Part shown: one piece after another, positions 16,341-21,252 of the stretch
Position numbering within the stretch: the first letter of the stretch is position 1
Layout of the letters: every line of letters begins with the position of its first letter
From: Paenibacillus durus ATCC 35681
Lineage (GTDB): Bacteria; Bacillota; Bacilli; Paenibacillales; Paenibacillaceae
Length of the DNA: 64,000 bases
NCBI RefSeq assembly: GCF_000993825.1
Contig: NZ_CP011114.1
Location: 4,960,001 to 5,024,000, forward strand
Reading direction: 5' to 3'
Program-made: the position numbers and the translations under genes
Notes under the pieces: generated by a model
Databases searched by the model: none
What the model saw: only the letters and a program-made list of their open reading frames with translations
Told to the model about the DNA's origin: nothing

Positions 16341-16609
16341 TGTTTAGTTCACCTCTTTTTTGGGGGTTGCCGCTATGTTAAGTTTCCCTCGGTTCAACGC
16401 TTCACTTCTTATAATTCCAGATAATAATAGTTTTAGGTTTAGTTTACGCCTAAAGTTAAACTAGTGTATATACCTCTATAGTTCACCTTCTATTCATCCT
16501 TTTGAATAAGTACGTGAATGCCGGATACGTCCGCCGATCCGCGAGGCCAAACCCAAACACAAAATTGTAACAATATAATAGAAATATTCGGGATTTCCAA
16601 ATAAGGAGA

Positions 16610-16638
16610 TTGACGTAATAAACGCAAAACAATATAAT
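16610..16638 (+). promoter_or_regulatory. Strong sigma-A promoter upstream of the importer operon
   Basis: TTGACG (16610-16615) and TATAAT (16633-16638) are spaced by 17 bases. A transcript from here would start near 16645, about 175 bases ahead of the ABC ATPase gene, and meet the hairpin at 16715-16756. The 477-base gap 16341-16817 holds nothing else that I can support. Confidence 0.75.
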
Positions 16639-16714
16639 CCTATCAAGCAACTCGGGATTATATAATTTGGTGAAATCAAAGCAATTCTTAAATTAAAGTT
16701 GAGCGGACAGCCGC

Positions 16715-16756
16715 AGGCCGTATTCTTTCTTCTTCCAGAGGAAAGAAACGGCCTTT
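16715..16756 (+). terminator. Leader terminator (possible attenuator) before the importer operon
   Basis: AGGCCGT pairs with ACGGCCT and TTCTTTC with GAAAGAA, a 14-bp stem with one bulge, ending in TTTT. No gene precedes it on this strand; it lies between the promoter at 16610 and the first gene at 16818. It is best read as a leader terminator that could be regulated, or as the end of a small RNA. I recognised no known riboswitch consensus. Confidence 0.65.
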
Positions 16757-16817
16757 TGTGTTTCACCAGAGGCCGGCACCGCAGCTTTATCTTAATTTAA
16801 TGAGAGGAGTAATGCAG

Positions 16818-17666
16818 ATGTCCCGCTATCCATTGATCTCCACGGACGCGATAACCGAGGCTTCCCCAGAGGAGAGTGCCCGGCAGCCGATCATTTCGAT
16901 CCGGCAGCTTGGCAAATCTTTTGTATCCGGCAGCGGCAAGGGGGCGGTTCGCTATCAGGTGCTGAAAGATGTCGATCTGAATATCCAGAGGGGGGAGTTT
17001 TTTATCCTACTGGGTCCCAGCGGCTGCGGCAAGTCAACATTGCTTAACCTGATCGCCGGTTTTGAGAAGCAGACCGAAGGCGAATTGCTCGTGGACGGAA
17101 AGACCATTGACCGGCCCGGTAAGGAGCGGGCTATGGTCTTTCAGCATCCGGATGCTTCCCTGTTCCCTTGGCTGAATGTCCGGGAGAACATCGAATTCGG
17201 CCTGCGCATGCAGGGGGTGAGCCGCGGAGAACGCAAGGCCGTCTCCGACCGGTATATCGAACTGGCTGGACTAACGGGACATGAGCGCAAATTTCCTCGT
17301 GAGCTGTCGGGCGGCATGAAGCAGCGGGTTCAGATCGCGAGGGTGCTCGCGAATGACCCGGAGCTTTTGCTGATGGATGAACCTCTGGGGGCTTTGGATG
17401 CATTCACCCGCAGGGTTATGCAGGATGAGCTGGTGCGGATATGGACGGAGACCAAGAAGACGGTCATATTCGTAACGCATGATATTCAGGAGGCGGTGCT
17501 GCTCGGGGGCCGAATCGGCATTATGTCCATAGGTCCGGACTCGCGCGTGTTCGAAATTATGGATAACCGTCTTGAGTATCCCCGTGACATAACCTCGCGG
17601 GAATTCAATTTGATGCAGAAAAAGCTGCAAAGTATCTTCCAGGACGATCTGTATTTTCATTTATAA
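16818..17666 (+). CDS. SsuB/TauB-like ABC transporter ATP-binding protein
   Basis: ATPase of a nitrate/sulfonate/taurine-type importer, 282 residues. It shows Walker A GPSGCGKSTLL, the signature LSGGMKQR, Walker B LLLMDEPLGALDA and a switch His in VTHDIQEA. Of several in-frame starts, ATG 16818 (MSRYPLISTD) has AGAGGAG at 8 bases; ATG 16812 is too close and 16758 has no site. First of four linked genes with the permease, binding lipoprotein and a radical SAM protein. The substrate is unknown; this class carries small organic sulfonates, nitrate, pyrimidine precursors and other compounds. Confidence 0.9.
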   Translation: MSRYPLISTDAITEASPEESARQPIISIRQLGKSFVSGSGKGAVRYQVLKDVDLNIQRGEFFILLGPSGCGKSTLLNLIAGFEKQTEGELLVDGKTIDRPGKERAMVFQHPDASLFPWLNVRENIEFGLRMQGVSRGERKAVSDRYIELAGLTGHERKFPRELSGGMKQRVQIARVLANDPELLLMDEPLGALDAFTRRVMQDELVRIWTETKKTVIFVTHDIQEAVLLGGRIGIMSIGPDSRVFEIMDNRLEYPRDITSREFNLMQKKLQSIFQDDLYFHL

Positions 17667-17693
17667 GCCACTCTGAAAGGAGACAAACATACG

Positions 17694-18470
17694 ATGCGTT
17701 ATGTTCGGAAAGGATTGAAGGCGGGCCTTATTTCCTGGCTGCTATTCCTGGTCGTGTGGCAGCTGGTTGCCATGAACTCGAATCCGGACTATTTTCCGAC
17801 TCCGATCCAGACTTTGCAGGGGGCGGTCGAACTCCTCAACGACAATTCACTGATCTCTTACGTCTTAATCAGCTTTAAGCGGGTGGTGCTCGGATGGCTG
17901 CTGGGGAGTCTGCTGGGCATCCCGGCGGGCCTCTTGATTGGCAGGTTCAGGTGGCTGCGGGAACTGGTCGAGCCTTATCTGAACTTCTTCCGGTTCATTC
18001 CGGCGCTCGCCTTTATTACCCTGTTTATTCTGTGGTTTGGAATTGGAGAGCAGTCGAAGATCATTCTTATCATGTATGCGACGCTGTTCATTGTCGTGTT
18101 GAATACGGCGGCGGGCGTAGTGAATGTGGAGGATGACAAAATCCGGTCGGCACGGTCGCTGGGCGCCTCGGAGCGGCAGATTTTGATCCATGTCATTATT
18201 CCTGCTGTCGTTCCCGCCTTTTTCAACGGGGTCCGGCTGGCTATGGGGAATTCATTCATGGCCATTGTTGGGGCGGAGATGATAGCTGCCAATGAGGGAG
18301 TCGGTTATCTGATCTGGACCTCGCGGCTGTACTCCAAGACGGACTGGATTTTCGTCGGACTTCTGCTGCTGGGATTAATGGGCTTTGCCGGGGACCAACT
18401 GCTGCGCTGGATGGGGAAGACGACGCTGGGGCGCTATGGAATTGCCAAAGAAACAAGGTTTGGAAAGTAA
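17694..18470 (+). CDS. SsuC/TauC-like ABC transporter permease
   Basis: Membrane permease of 258 residues with six predicted membrane segments. The BPD_transp_1 domain includes LGWLLGSLLGIPAGLLIG and the EAA-type coupling loop ARSLGASERQILIHVIIPAVVP. AAAGGAGA precedes the ATG by about 9 bases, and the gene follows the ATPase gene after 27 bases. It would form the pore for the substrate delivered by the lipoprotein encoded next. Confidence 0.92.
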   Translation: MRYVRKGLKAGLISWLLFLVVWQLVAMNSNPDYFPTPIQTLQGAVELLNDNSLISYVLISFKRVVLGWLLGSLLGIPAGLLIGRFRWLRELVEPYLNFFRFIPALAFITLFILWFGIGEQSKIILIMYATLFIVVLNTAAGVVNVEDDKIRSARSLGASERQILIHVIIPAVVPAFFNGVRLAMGNSFMAIVGAEMIAANEGVGYLIWTSRLYSKTDWIFVGLLLLGLMGFAGDQLLRWMGKTTLGRYGIAKETRFGK

Positions 18471-18519
18471 AAAGATGTGGAAAGTAAATTTCAAAAGTAA
18501 TCGTGGGGGGACAGGACAA

Positions 18520-19545
18520 GTGAAAAGCAAGCAAAGCCGGGTTTGGAAAGCAGTCGCTGGAGCAGTGTTGTTAATGGGAATCATGATTTCATTGTCAGGC
18601 TGCGGAGACGTCAAGGCAAAGTCGGAAGAGACGGCGGATGGAGCCAAGCTGCAGAAAGTCCGCATCGGGGGAGACTCCTCTTTGTTCTCGCTGCAATTTC
18701 GGGTAGCCAAGGAGCAGGGGCTATTTGAGAAAAATGGAATCGATGCTGAAATATCGACATTTTCCTTTGGGATTGACACACTCAATGCGGTGCTGACCGA
18801 TCGGGTGGACGTCGGGGAAGCGATGGATTATGCGGCCCTCAGCGCGCTGTCGAAGGGAGACTTAAAGGTGCTGTCCCTATTCTCCTCGCCGAAAGAGACC
18901 AGTTCGAAACTGTTCGCCAGAGACGGGATTAGTAGGCCCGAGGATTTGATCGGCAAGAAGCTGGGCGTACAAAAAGGGACGGTGAACGAGTACATTTGGG
19001 GCAAGTATTTTGAGACGTTCCATATCGACAAGAAGGATGTGACTCTCGTCCCGCTGCAATCCACGGCAGAGATCCTGGCCGCCTATGACAGAGGCGATAT
19101 ACAGGCTGCCTGGTTCGGCACCGCGTTCTTTGACAAGGCGGAGAAGGTGGAGGGCTCCAAAGCCCTTAACGATCTATCCGCAATCAACATTCGGACGAAG
19201 GGATTTTTAGTCGCAAAAGCAGCTCTGGTCAAGGATAATCCTCAAATCTCGGCGGGACTGAACAAGGCGCTGGCGGAAGCTTCTAAGTATATTGCCGATC
19301 ATCCGGAAGAGGCTGCCGAGTTGGCATTCAAAGAGGTGAAAATTCCAAAGGATAACGCGCTGCGGGAAATTAAGAATGAATGGGAATTTGATGTCCGTTT
19401 CAATCAGGAGGATTATGACCAGTTGAAGGAGATCAAGGAATGGAGTGTGGCCAACGGCTATATCGAGCAGGATTTCAAGCTTGACGACAAGCTGGCCCTG
19501 GAAGGATTAAAGGAAGCTTTTCCGGACAAAGTGACTATTCAATAA
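18520..19545 (+). CDS. SsuA/NMT1-like substrate-binding lipoprotein
   Basis: Extracellular binding protein of 341 residues. The chosen GTG at 18520 gives a proper lipoprotein signal: basic KSKQSRVWK, a hydrophobic core, and the lipobox LSGC with Cys28. ATG 18475 would add a non-signal extension. The mature protein has the NMT1/SsuA fold, with IGGDSSLFSLQFRVAKEQGL at its start and DVGEAMDYAALSAL where the ligand loop lies. Related proteins bind sulfonates, nitrate, HMP-like pyrimidines or other small ligands. It sits between the permease and radical SAM genes. Confidence 0.9.
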   Translation: MKSKQSRVWKAVAGAVLLMGIMISLSGCGDVKAKSEETADGAKLQKVRIGGDSSLFSLQFRVAKEQGLFEKNGIDAEISTFSFGIDTLNAVLTDRVDVGEAMDYAALSALSKGDLKVLSLFSSPKETSSKLFARDGISRPEDLIGKKLGVQKGTVNEYIWGKYFETFHIDKKDVTLVPLQSTAEILAAYDRGDIQAAWFGTAFFDKAEKVEGSKALNDLSAINIRTKGFLVAKAALVKDNPQISAGLNKALAEASKYIADHPEEAAELAFKEVKIPKDNALREIKNEWEFDVRFNQEDYDQLKEIKEWSVANGYIEQDFKLDDKLALEGLKEAFPDKVTIQ

Positions 19546-19567
19546 AAAATAAAGGAGATGCATACCA

Positions 19568-20767
19568 ATGAGCGATTTGAAAAATCGGCTGCATGAGGAG
19601 CTTGCCATCAAGAACGCCTGCCAGGTTGAGGGGATAAACGCTGACCCTGCCATTTTTGAAGGGGTGGAGCTCGGAGATAAATACCAGGAACAAATCCAGA
19701 CGCTGTTCGATTACAATCTGCATAATCATACGGGTGTTGTTCTGCCGGTGTGCTTCTATACTCCAGGGGGACTGCGGGTGGGCTACCGCTGGAACGACCG
19801 GTCTCCTTACAAGCTGCGCAAAGAGGGGAACCAGTTCATCCTGTACCATGAGCGCAAGGAACTGTTTCCGGTAAGCCTGAAAAAGCGCCCCAAGTACTAC
19901 AGCCTGAAAACGTCGGACGGCGCCAATATGAATCAGGTTGCGACTCACAACGGGGAGGGCGCTATATTCGTCTCCTACAGCAACGAGTGCTTTCTGAAGG
20001 AAACCGGGCATGACTGCAAATATTGCAATATCAACTATACGCATGATACGTATGGGGAGGAGCATGGCGTAAGCTGGAAATACCCGCGCCAGATTGGCGA
20101 AACCGCTGCGGTCGCTTACCAAGAGGGAGCGAAGCATATTACAATCAGCGGAGGATTTATCCCCGAGCGGCGGGAGATTGATTATTACTTCGACGTGGCG
20201 GAGGCGATACAGGAGCATACCGGGCTTCAGGACTTCAACGGCACGGCCGTAATCGGCGCGCCGCTCGATCTTAGCATCCTTGAGCGTTACAAAGATGCTG
20301 GCTACCGCACGATAGCCATGAACCTTGAGATATGGGACAAAAATATTTTTAATTCGGTCTGCCCCGGAAAGGTGATTCACTGCGGCGGCTGGGATCATTG
20401 GGTGAAAGCGCTGGAACGGGCTGCGGTCGTCTTCGGACATGGCCGTGTCCGCTCCAACTTCGTCGGCGGCATGGAGACCAAGAAATCCACGCTGGAAGGC
20501 GTGAAATATCTGGCCTCCCAGGGGGTAATCGCCTATGCCGGGGCCTGGATTCCGAATCTCGGCTCGGAATATGAGGGCCATCGGTCGCCGCTGCCGGAAT
20601 GGCATCTGGACGTTGCGTACAAAATCGTTGATATTTTCCGCAGCGCCGGGTTCACCTATGAGCAGCTGTATGATTCCAGCGCCTCGGCTGACGGCTTGTG
20701 GAATGATATTTACAAGATCGAGGAGGAGCGGCTGCCGGTATTCAAGGGCGAACCTTCGGTTGTCTGA
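19568..20767 (+). CDS. Radical SAM-like protein with CX8CX2C cluster motif
   Basis: Cytoplasmic protein of 399 residues. After a 130-residue N-terminal part, the segment IFVSYSNECFLKETGHDC places Cys141, Cys150 and Cys153 as CX8CX2C, where classical radical SAM proteins have CX3CX2C. The rest fits the SAM barrel: GAKHITISGG (SAM-binding GGE-like strand), LEIWDKNIFNSVCPGK and RVRSNFVGGMET, which recall BioB/ThiH-like enzymes. The product is unknown. AAAGGAG precedes it, 22 bases after the lipoprotein gene, so it probably processes the imported substrate. A terminator closes the operon at 20817. Confidence 0.78.
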   Translation: MSDLKNRLHEELAIKNACQVEGINADPAIFEGVELGDKYQEQIQTLFDYNLHNHTGVVLPVCFYTPGGLRVGYRWNDRSPYKLRKEGNQFILYHERKELFPVSLKKRPKYYSLKTSDGANMNQVATHNGEGAIFVSYSNECFLKETGHDCKYCNINYTHDTYGEEHGVSWKYPRQIGETAAVAYQEGAKHITISGGFIPERREIDYYFDVAEAIQEHTGLQDFNGTAVIGAPLDLSILERYKDAGYRTIAMNLEIWDKNIFNSVCPGKVIHCGGWDHWVKALERAAVVFGHGRVRSNFVGGMETKKSTLEGVKYLASQGVIAYAGAWIPNLGSEYEGHRSPLPEWHLDVAYKIVDIFRSAGFTYEQLYDSSASADGLWNDIYKIEEERLPVFKGEPSVV

Positions 20768-20816
20768 TTTTTGCAGGAACAAGGGGATAAGGATCACATA
20801 TGGATTGTTCTCTAAG

Positions 20817-20851
20817 GCGTACTGTCTTTTCGGCAGTATGCTTTATTTTTT
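20817..20851 (+). terminator. Terminator of importer/radical SAM operon
   Basis: GCGTACTG (20817-20824) pairs with CAGTATGC (20834-20841) with one G-U, followed by a ten-base T-rich run. Confidence 0.8.
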
Positions 20852-20964: not shown

Positions 20965-21252
20965 CCGTATGGCCTTGTAACACAAGGGCAGGTTCAATTC
21001 AAAAGCATGCAACAAGCTGCGGACACACGTGAACATGATAATCTGCGGAATGTGCCGCTGACCGTAATTTCGGCTACGGATCACGGTCTTGGCCCTGAGA
21101 TAGACGAAATCTGGGCTGGGTTGCAGGATGACTTAGCGACTTTGTCGGATTACAGCCGTCATGTGGTCTCTCCGGCCACAGGCCATTACGTACAATTCGA
21201 AAAACCTCAGCTGGTAATCGACGAGATCGTTGCCTTGTTTAAACGACTGTAA
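20965..21252 (+). pseudogene. C-terminal fragment of an alpha/beta hydrolase
   Basis: The frame from just after a TGA at 20962 to the stop at 21252 reads like the last third of an alpha/beta hydrolase: a strand LRNVPLTVISATDHG, a segment WAGLQDDLATLS, and the catalytic-His region VSPATGHYVQFEKPQLVIDEI. The lid and nucleophile elbow are absent, and no start or ribosome binding site is seen. The homology extends upstream of the ATG at 21007. It is a 5'-truncated remnant with no product expected. Confidence 0.75.

Follow-up and report, generated by a model that had tools for sequence, protein, structure and literature searches.

A radical SAM and importer operon of Paenibacillus durus, probably a detached relative of the isethionate reductase system, and its recurring leader RNA

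A 64,000-nucleotide stretch of the genome of Paenibacillus durus ATCC 35681 (contig NZ_CP011114.1, positions 4,960,001 to 5,024,000; here called the window, with positions counted from its first letter) carries at 16610-20851 an operon for an ATP-binding cassette (ABC) importer and a variant radical S-adenosylmethionine (SAM) protein, abbreviated rSAM. Judged from homology and gene content, it is a detached, paralogous version of the isethionate reductase pathway, IsrBHDK with SsuCAB, which was published in 2024 (PMC11423573). The operon's sequence presents an Ssu-type importer, an IsrB-type rSAM protein with a CX8CX2C motif, and an attenuator leader which it has in common with metK-isrHDK genes located elsewhere in the same 5.58-Mb genome (G000). 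The operon is probably, at a rough probability of 0.7, a sulfur-starvation module, in which importer and rSAM protein would work in trans with the unlinked metK-isrHDK.

Transcription is expected to begin at a sigma-70-type promoter on the + strand, TTGACG-17-TATAAT (16610..16638), which has 11 of 12 consensus matches and is kept in all five aligned orthologous leaders. Four co-directional genes, all on the + strand, follow the leader. They encode an ABC importer ATPase of the Ssu/Tau/Nrt/Sao type (282 aa; 16818..17666), an SsuC/TauC/SaoP-like permease (258 aa; 17694..18470), a substrate-binding lipoprotein of the NMT1/SsuA family (341 aa, GTG start; 18520..19545) and the rSAM protein (IsrB-type, family NF045502, 399 aa; 19568..20767). 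The operon ends at 20813..20851 (+) with a terminator-like hairpin (20813-20845) and a T run. The four genes are also together in three relatives (L021, L022 and L040), a fourth (L043) has a degenerate copy, and they recur in another order in Clostridium luticellarii. The ratio of nonsynonymous to synonymous substitution (dN/dS) was 0.03-0.08 for window genes in four comparisons, 0.03 and 0.08 in the two for the rSAM gene, indicating strong purifying selection. Because of this ratio, the promoter, the leader fold, the conserved gene set and the invariant cysteines described below, the unit at 16610-20851 is taken to be a real, selected operon, with chance excluded. The original prediction, drawn from the DNA alone, had placed a strong promoter, a short leader with its own terminator and an SsuABC-like importer in a single unit, and each of these was borne out.

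The precedent comes from Rhodobacter capsulatus, in which, according to the published report, isrBHDK and ssuCAB are required for isethionate to serve as sulfur source, and their transfer confers growth (PMC11423573). As the hallmark of IsrD, the same report gives a single P-cluster cysteine where three would be usual, the other two sites being occupied by Arg and by Pro or Ser, and it gives IsrK three cysteines (PMC11423573). In the literature the Nfa proteins could be followed no further than this paper. An rSAM protein of R. capsulatus, P0146 (408 aa), is 49% identical to the window rSAM over 392 aa and 64% identical to the rSAM of a Rhodopila genome (L118). In two Rhodopila genomes (L118, L119) the gene order rSAM-H-D-K matches that of the published isrBHDK, and on gene order and homology P0146 is inferred to be IsrB, to which the window rSAM would then be homologous over its full length.

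The window genome has 20 nitrogenase-component-1 matches above cut-off. One set, metK-NflH-NflD-NflK (L056), has open frames and lies at 4.07 Mb, 0.9 Mb from the window cassette. In an alignment of 11 Isr-type NflD proteins, L056 included, only the middle P-cluster cysteine is left in every row, and the third site is Pro in ten and Ser in one; NflK has three cysteines in the 11 rows. All eight control NflD rows, six of them from the window genome, keep all three cysteines. The metK-isrHDK genes of L056 are the likely partners of the window rSAM. In the PDB, NflD and NflK come closest to 9d9u and 9fmg, which bear just the title Nitrogenase and are presumably structures of the methylthio-alkane reductase, Mar.

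No rSAM or importer gene lies downstream of nflK in L056. The nearest named relatives by rSAM identity are P. forsythiae (97%) and P. rhizophilus (95%). Between nflK and the next gene of P. forsythiae about 7 kb, comprising rSAM, importer and flavoprotein genes, are gone, and in the window genome homology to the sister cluster stops at the end of nflK. Both genomes retain the window cassette, and in the window genome its rSAM is the only close IsrB-type protein that was found. Paralogues of this rSAM with 55-57% identity occur in five related genomes, where the order is metK, nifH-like, nifD-like, nifK-like, rSAM, ABC ATPase, two permeases and an SsuA-like protein, together with a methylthioadenosine/S-adenosylhomocysteine nucleosidase in two and a flavoprotein in three. 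The window cassette appears to be a detached paralogue of the cassette that stands beside isrHDK in sister species. The cluster of C. luticellarii begins with nifH-like, metK, rSAM, binding protein and nifDK-like genes, continues with a nucleoside-phosphorylase-family protein, a dehydrogenase-like protein and rSAM-ATPase-permease-binding protein, which are the window's four genes reordered within an nflH-metK-nflDK cluster, and ends with an arylsulfotransferase-like protein and a third rSAM. That rSAM-importer cassettes detach and multiply, as these arrangements suggest, is new here.

The distribution of the two gene sets was compared in 100 relatives, the window genome included. Full-length rSAM (at least 55% identity) is present in seven and Isr-type NflD (at least 58%) in eight, with all seven among the eight. 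The eighth NflD genome (G047) has a short rSAM remnant, and its NflH gene is reduced to a remnant of 49 residues. A ninth genome with Isr genes (G029) has a truncated metK and a truncated NflK, neither NflH nor NflD at the locus, and no rSAM match. In another (G035) the window-type unit is degenerate, and the nfl-linked rSAM is full length. Intact Isr genes without a full-length rSAM were seen in none of the 100 genomes; the operon of P. forsythiae, whose contig is cut inside NflD, was not judged. NflK homologues (E up to 1e-15) occur in each of the nine named genomes that carry this type of rSAM, and in seven the identity is 37-68%. In the two with the most distant rSAMs (G501 and G502) the NflK homologues are only 33-36% identical, and the rSAM of G502 adjoins NflDK of a non-Isr type.

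The leader RNA element (16636..16720, +) contains a hairpin P1 (16636-16659), drawn from conserved sequence and single-sequence folds only, and a covarying hairpin P2, which has an outer stem (16698-16700/16716-16718), a GA/A internal loop and an inner stem (16703-16706/16711-16714). An intrinsic terminator lies at 16715..16760 (+), and its 5′ arm shares nucleotides with the 3′ side of the P2 outer stem, so that the two form an attenuator. With ViennaRNA, 16636-16760 formed the hairpins and, at 16715-16754, a terminator stem with UUUUGUG behind it; the fold has -37.0 kcal/mol compared to a shuffle mean of -23.9 (z -3.9), and none of 200 shuffles equalled it. This terminator had been missed by a simple terminator scan. 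The leader without its terminator (16636-16720) folded no better than shuffles (z 0.28), and the same was true of several aptamer-only folds. Support for P2 comes from covariation. When 42 distinct sequences were aligned as an ungapped block of 24 nt, with relatedness uncontrolled, the bases of the outer stem could pair in 138 of the 168 cells, and 2000 shuffles reached 130 at most; for the 32 non-training sequences, with the same proviso, the values are 105 of 128 and 97. RNAalifold, applied to a model-fitted alignment of 50 rows, predicted seven pairs, every one of them within P2 and with changes in both of its partners, and none in P1. As a covarying stem P1 was rejected, since the 13-row alignment has no pair changed on both sides; on that alignment two of five whole-structure measures were unremarkable, with 56 and 49 of 500 shuffles as high. 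A pseudoknot between the P1 loop and P2 was likewise discarded, having been seen by eye in the window leader and in none of the others.

Four relatives have a conserved counterpart of the window leader, and the core of this leader is found again immediately in front of metK-isrHDK, both in the window genome and in others. A model built from 13 aligned leaders (R1) gave 61 matches at E<=0.05 in 31 of the 100 relatives, with about five expected by chance if the rough E-values hold. Thirteen of these are training rows; 35 of the other 48 were inspected, and 30 read as preceding sulfur genes. The remaining five of the 35 count against a general link with sulfur genes: two are without a gene on their strand, one precedes a sugar-epimerase operon, one a LacI-type regulator, and one is unclear. 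The genes that follow R1 matches include those for sulfate uptake (cysT/sbp), ssuA/ssuB/ssuC-type importers, SsuD or NtaA/DmoA-type monooxygenases and an SsuE-like reductase, and further metNIQ-like importers, cysK-nflKD, O-acetylhomoserine-sulfhydrylase-like genes with nflDK, and metK-isr. Twenty of the proteins were compared with NCBIfam, several importer and sulfhydrylase matches being below cut-off, and the rest were named by eye or by likeness. A broader model built from the R1 matches (R2) had matches at E<=0.001 in 32 of the 299 genomes of Bacilli that were scanned. Eighteen of 29 further loci were viewed, and in 14 the next gene, read by eye, is cysT or is SsuE-, SsuA-, TauD- or monooxygenase-like. 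The window genome itself has eight R2 sites. Four precede the window operon, metK-isrHDK, an operon of SsuD-like monooxygenase, a second rSAM and metK, and cysK-nflKD; the other four, named partly by likeness, precede sulfhydrylase-like/nflDK genes, two Ssu-family-like importers and a metNIQ-like operon.

Several leader copies stand in unusual surroundings. At L163:5476-5543 and L164:5437-5488 copies scoring 58-59 bits have no evident gene downstream on their strand and are possibly relics of lost cassettes. A tandem pair of elements precedes an NtaA/DmoA-type monooxygenase at L160:1414-1569.

At gathering score the Rfam 15 models found only a tRNA elsewhere in the window and nothing in the leader, the SAM-I riboswitch (S box, RF00162) included. 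When 16400-16900 was compared at E up to 10, five weak matches appeared, all far below their gathering scores, and 16 related leader loci gave no Rfam match. In C. luticellarii, by contrast, canonical SAM-I riboswitches lie upstream of the nflH-metK unit, the rSAM-importer unit and the third rSAM. Because these equivalent units carry SAM-I riboswitches, it is likely, by analogy, that the Paenibacillus leader responds to a sulfur or SAM signal. In open-licence papers, taken without their supplements, nothing was found on the window leader beyond a possible precedent of 2010, discussed below, and the regulatory RNA of the window operon looks new or nearly so.

It had been claimed in the original prediction that the rSAM protein has Cys at 141, 150 and 153, as CX8CX2C rather than CX3CX2C, and the alignment confirms this. 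The three cysteines, encoded at 19988..20026 (+), are invariant in all 122 aligned sequences, a set made up of the window protein, a paralogue and 120 homologues listed out of 435 found. A CX3CX2C motif is absent from all of them. Conservation is nearly as high for two further cysteines, with C265 present in 118 of the sequences and C272 in 117. The motif also occurs in all 33 rows of the rSAM tree, and since these include two outgroup rows, it probably belongs to a wider variant-rSAM family. The protein scores 34.9 bits with PF04055, above cut-off, and 445 bits with NCBIfam NF045502, "variant_rSAM", for which the cut-off is 125. A sequence search of solved structures found nothing better than E 0.5. 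The AlphaFold model (predicted local distance difference test score, pLDDT, 93.7) has a radical SAM fold, and by structure it is related to lipoyl synthase, HydE, BioB and NifB. The cluster loop of an rSAM protein is expected between a strand and the following helix, and the CX8CX2C loop of the model lies between strand 132-138 and helix 155-166. The protein is predicted to bind an Fe-S cluster. Nothing on CX8CX2C in an IsrB-type enzyme was found in the same literature.

The binding protein matches NMT1 (PF09084) above cut-off, and the nearest NCBIfam model is SsuA_fam, at 119.2 bits compared to a cut-off of 163.5. A score of this size is compatible with a function that may be similar to that of the SsuABC aliphatic sulfonate importer. 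The ATPase and the permease score best with the SaoA and SaoP models of NCBIfam, both below cut-off.

The sequence of events may then be envisaged as follows. Sulfur shortage would lead to read-through of both attenuators at once, that of the cassette and that of metK-isrHDK. The small sulfonate taken up by the importer would be isethionate or something closely related to it, and the co-regulated MetK would supply SAM to the rSAM enzyme. The latter would act in trans with the nitrogenase-like IsrHDK, in which an ATP-driven IsrH would feed IsrDK. Reductive cleavage of the C-S bond would yield sulfite, which would be assimilated, all under low oxygen. The substrate, the ligand and the rSAM chemistry in this scheme are putative.

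A number of findings count against the proposed sulfur-starvation module. There is no nflHDK match inside the window, and isrHDK is unlinked to the cassette. The first of the lost P-cluster sites is Asp in all 11 NflD rows and Arg in the published IsrD. The importer scores below the curated sulfonate cut-offs. In the rSAM tree, the window protein lies in a branch with 22 other rows (97/85) and the R. capsulatus protein in a branch of five (97/97), so the substrate of the window system may differ from the isethionate of R. capsulatus. The rSAM of L028 (37% identical) adjoins NflDK that retain the P-cluster cysteines, and that of L027 (36%) has no Isr-type NflDK within the stretch read.

The rSAM protein might instead be a maturase or activator of a nitrogenase-like protein, in the manner of NifB, probably MarB, or PflA, with the importer merely co-regulated and the imported compound left untouched. 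MarB is assumed to act like NifB, the window rSAM has a fold close to those of lipoyl synthase, HydE, BioB and NifB, and the role of IsrB is declared open in the paper on isethionate reductase (PMC11423573). This explanation is nevertheless rather unlikely. Nine of the 11 Isr-type loci that reach past both ends of HDK have metK beside them (L041, L042, L044, L045, L046, L056, L093, L116 and L120, but not L118 or L119; L117 and L122, on contigs cut at the cluster, and the broken L162 were left out), three Isr-type loci have a nucleosidase or nucleoside phosphorylase, and the nif clusters of the window genome (L049, L050 and L055) have no metK match. Of the three metK genes in that genome, two are within rSAM or nitrogenase-like operons under the leader. 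These neighbours suggest continuous use of SAM by the rSAM protein, and since metK adjoins Isr-type genes and not nif clusters, continuous consumption is favored over once-only maturation. The presence of several rSAM copies for one nflHDK set in C. luticellarii also speaks against a maturase, as does the lack of FeMo-co ligands reported for IsrD (PMC11423573). At the other extreme, the rSAM cassette might act alone on the imported substrate, with no need of nitrogenase-like proteins. The cassette does stand alone in the window and in Rhodopila (L024/L025), and distant relatives with 24-30% identity have Ssu-type importers, mostly with metK, and no nflHDK in the stretches examined. Independence of this kind is improbable, given that no genome among the 100 relatives has a full-length rSAM and lacks Isr-type nflD, that NflK homologues occur in every one of the nine named genomes with such an rSAM (at only 33-36% identity in G501 and G502), and that cassette and metK-isrHDK have the leader in common.

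Doubts of another kind concern what is imported and what the leader binds. The imported compound could be a sulfate ester or a thioether, in keeping with the arylsulfotransferase-like protein of the C. luticellarii cluster, with the SaoA and SaoP models as top matches, albeit below cut-off, and with the cleavage of methylated sulfur compounds reported for the related nitrogenase-like Mar enzymes. A small sulfonate is preferred, and these other compounds have a clearly smaller chance, as SsuA_fam is the nearest NCBIfam model of the binding protein, the second variant-rSAM operon of the genome starts with an SsuD-like luciferase-type monooxygenase, and the known precedent is isethionate (PMC11423573). 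An Xsc route was also considered and rejected; five weak matches were found, none above the cut-off of TIGR03457. As for the leader, it might be bound by an RNA-binding antiterminator protein in place of being a metabolite-sensing riboswitch. This possibility is a serious one, though it falls somewhat short of even odds. The hairpin that overlaps the terminator is short and its internal loop asymmetric, a layout that we take to be the architecture of BglG/LicT targets, and covariation supports P2 and not P1. The 2010 survey leaves the same question open for its own sulfonate leader (PMC2965389). Against a protein-bound leader is the use of metabolite-binding SAM riboswitches by the equivalent C. 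luticellarii units.

With the sulfur-starvation module as the preferred reading, the original prediction can be judged as a whole. Its unit, motif, importer and attenuator stand, and its link between the rSAM protein and the imported compound is upheld as probable only. The three findings named in advance as refuting it did not turn up: CX3CX2C is missing from the 122 sequences, the gene quartet recurs in other genomes, and the modelled motif sits where a cluster loop is expected. The likely metK-isrHDK partners 0.9 Mb away and the recurrence of the leader lay outside its view. The claim of an undescribed pathway does not hold, in light of IsrBHDK with SsuCAB (PMC11423573), nor does the claim that no standard name fits the combination, as the curated family NF045502 and the isethionate reductase precedent exist.

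Further variant-rSAM and nitrogenase-like genes were noted. At 3.306-3.310 Mb of the window genome (L095:7542-11823) an operon for an SsuD-like luciferase-type monooxygenase, a distant variant rSAM with CX8CX2C, a 155-aa protein and metK is preceded by a copy of the window leader RNA. Four further nitrogenase-like DK pairs lie at 1.85, 1.89, 2.20 and 2.52 Mb (L051, L052, L053, L054). Those at 1.89 and 2.52 Mb are under the sulfur leader, the first with cysK and the second, by comparison with L180, with a sulfhydrylase-like gene. Distant variant rSAMs at L082, L083, L087 and L089 have Ssu-type importers, and three of the four also have metK. A small neighbor of 151-164 aa is found beside those of L083, L087 and L089, and the rSAM of L087 adjoins proteins that by eye are 2-hydroxyacyl-CoA-dehydratase-like. 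Downstream of the window operon, a short open reading frame at 21007-21252 resembles, by eye, the end of an alpha/beta hydrolase and is possibly a remnant.

A wider proposal, which we put forward tentatively and at less than an even chance, joins two ideas. The attenuator would be a single copy of a Bacilli RNA, so far uncharacterised, that serves in sulfur starvation, and IsrB-type rSAM-importer cassettes would be exchangeable specificity modules. The RNA would consist of a covarying hairpin with a GA/A loop and an outer stem overlapping the terminator, usually behind a first conserved hairpin. It would take the place of SAM-I riboswitches and coordinate unlinked genes for sulfate, sulfonate and methionine import, SAM synthetases, nitrogenase-like reductases and rSAM cassettes. 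Several cassettes would serve one IsrHDK, each importing and activating its own sulfonate with stoichiometric use of SAM. A detached cassette that has survived loss of the local copy, extra SAM synthetases and multiple rSAMs per cluster offer handles on whether the rSAM protein is catalyst or maturase. The leader is an assayable regulatory RNA linking the system to sulfur starvation and, if a riboswitch, would form a new class.

Several known systems resemble parts of this one. In bacilli, the 2010 survey describes an attenuator upstream of the operon for an alkanesulfonate transporter, proposes that a common element has a role in sulfonate metabolism, and mentions another element that precedes an unknown gene and a sulfonate transporter (Naville and Gautheret, 2010; PMC2965389). 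The window leader is likened to this ABC-leader by description, not by sequence, and is possibly related to it. The window rSAM is related to the MSMEG_0568 family, TIGR04043, and is not a member, its 100.5 bits being far below the cut-off of 303.7. Seventy-one plasmid records had an rSAM match; the 30 listed were 23-27% identical, and most of these were annotated as MSMEG_0568 or plain radical SAM proteins. Sao-type organometal transport was rejected, since the scores with SaoA, SaoP and SaoX (247 vs. 360, 175 vs. 295 and 43 vs. 300 bits) are all under the equivalog cut-offs, even though SaoA and SaoP are the top models. The methylthio-alkane reductase MarBHDK is similar in its nitrogenase-like C-S cleavage and differs from the Isr-type NflD, which is without two of the three P-cluster cysteines (PMC12552129). 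The closest likeness is to IsrBHDK-SsuCAB: the window genome has an rSAM of the same family, an Ssu-type importer and an IsrHDK with the single-cysteine pattern. It differs in that the rSAM and importer genes are 0.9 Mb from isrHDK, and in the extra metK, the RNA attenuator, the separate tree branch, and Asp in place of the reported Arg.

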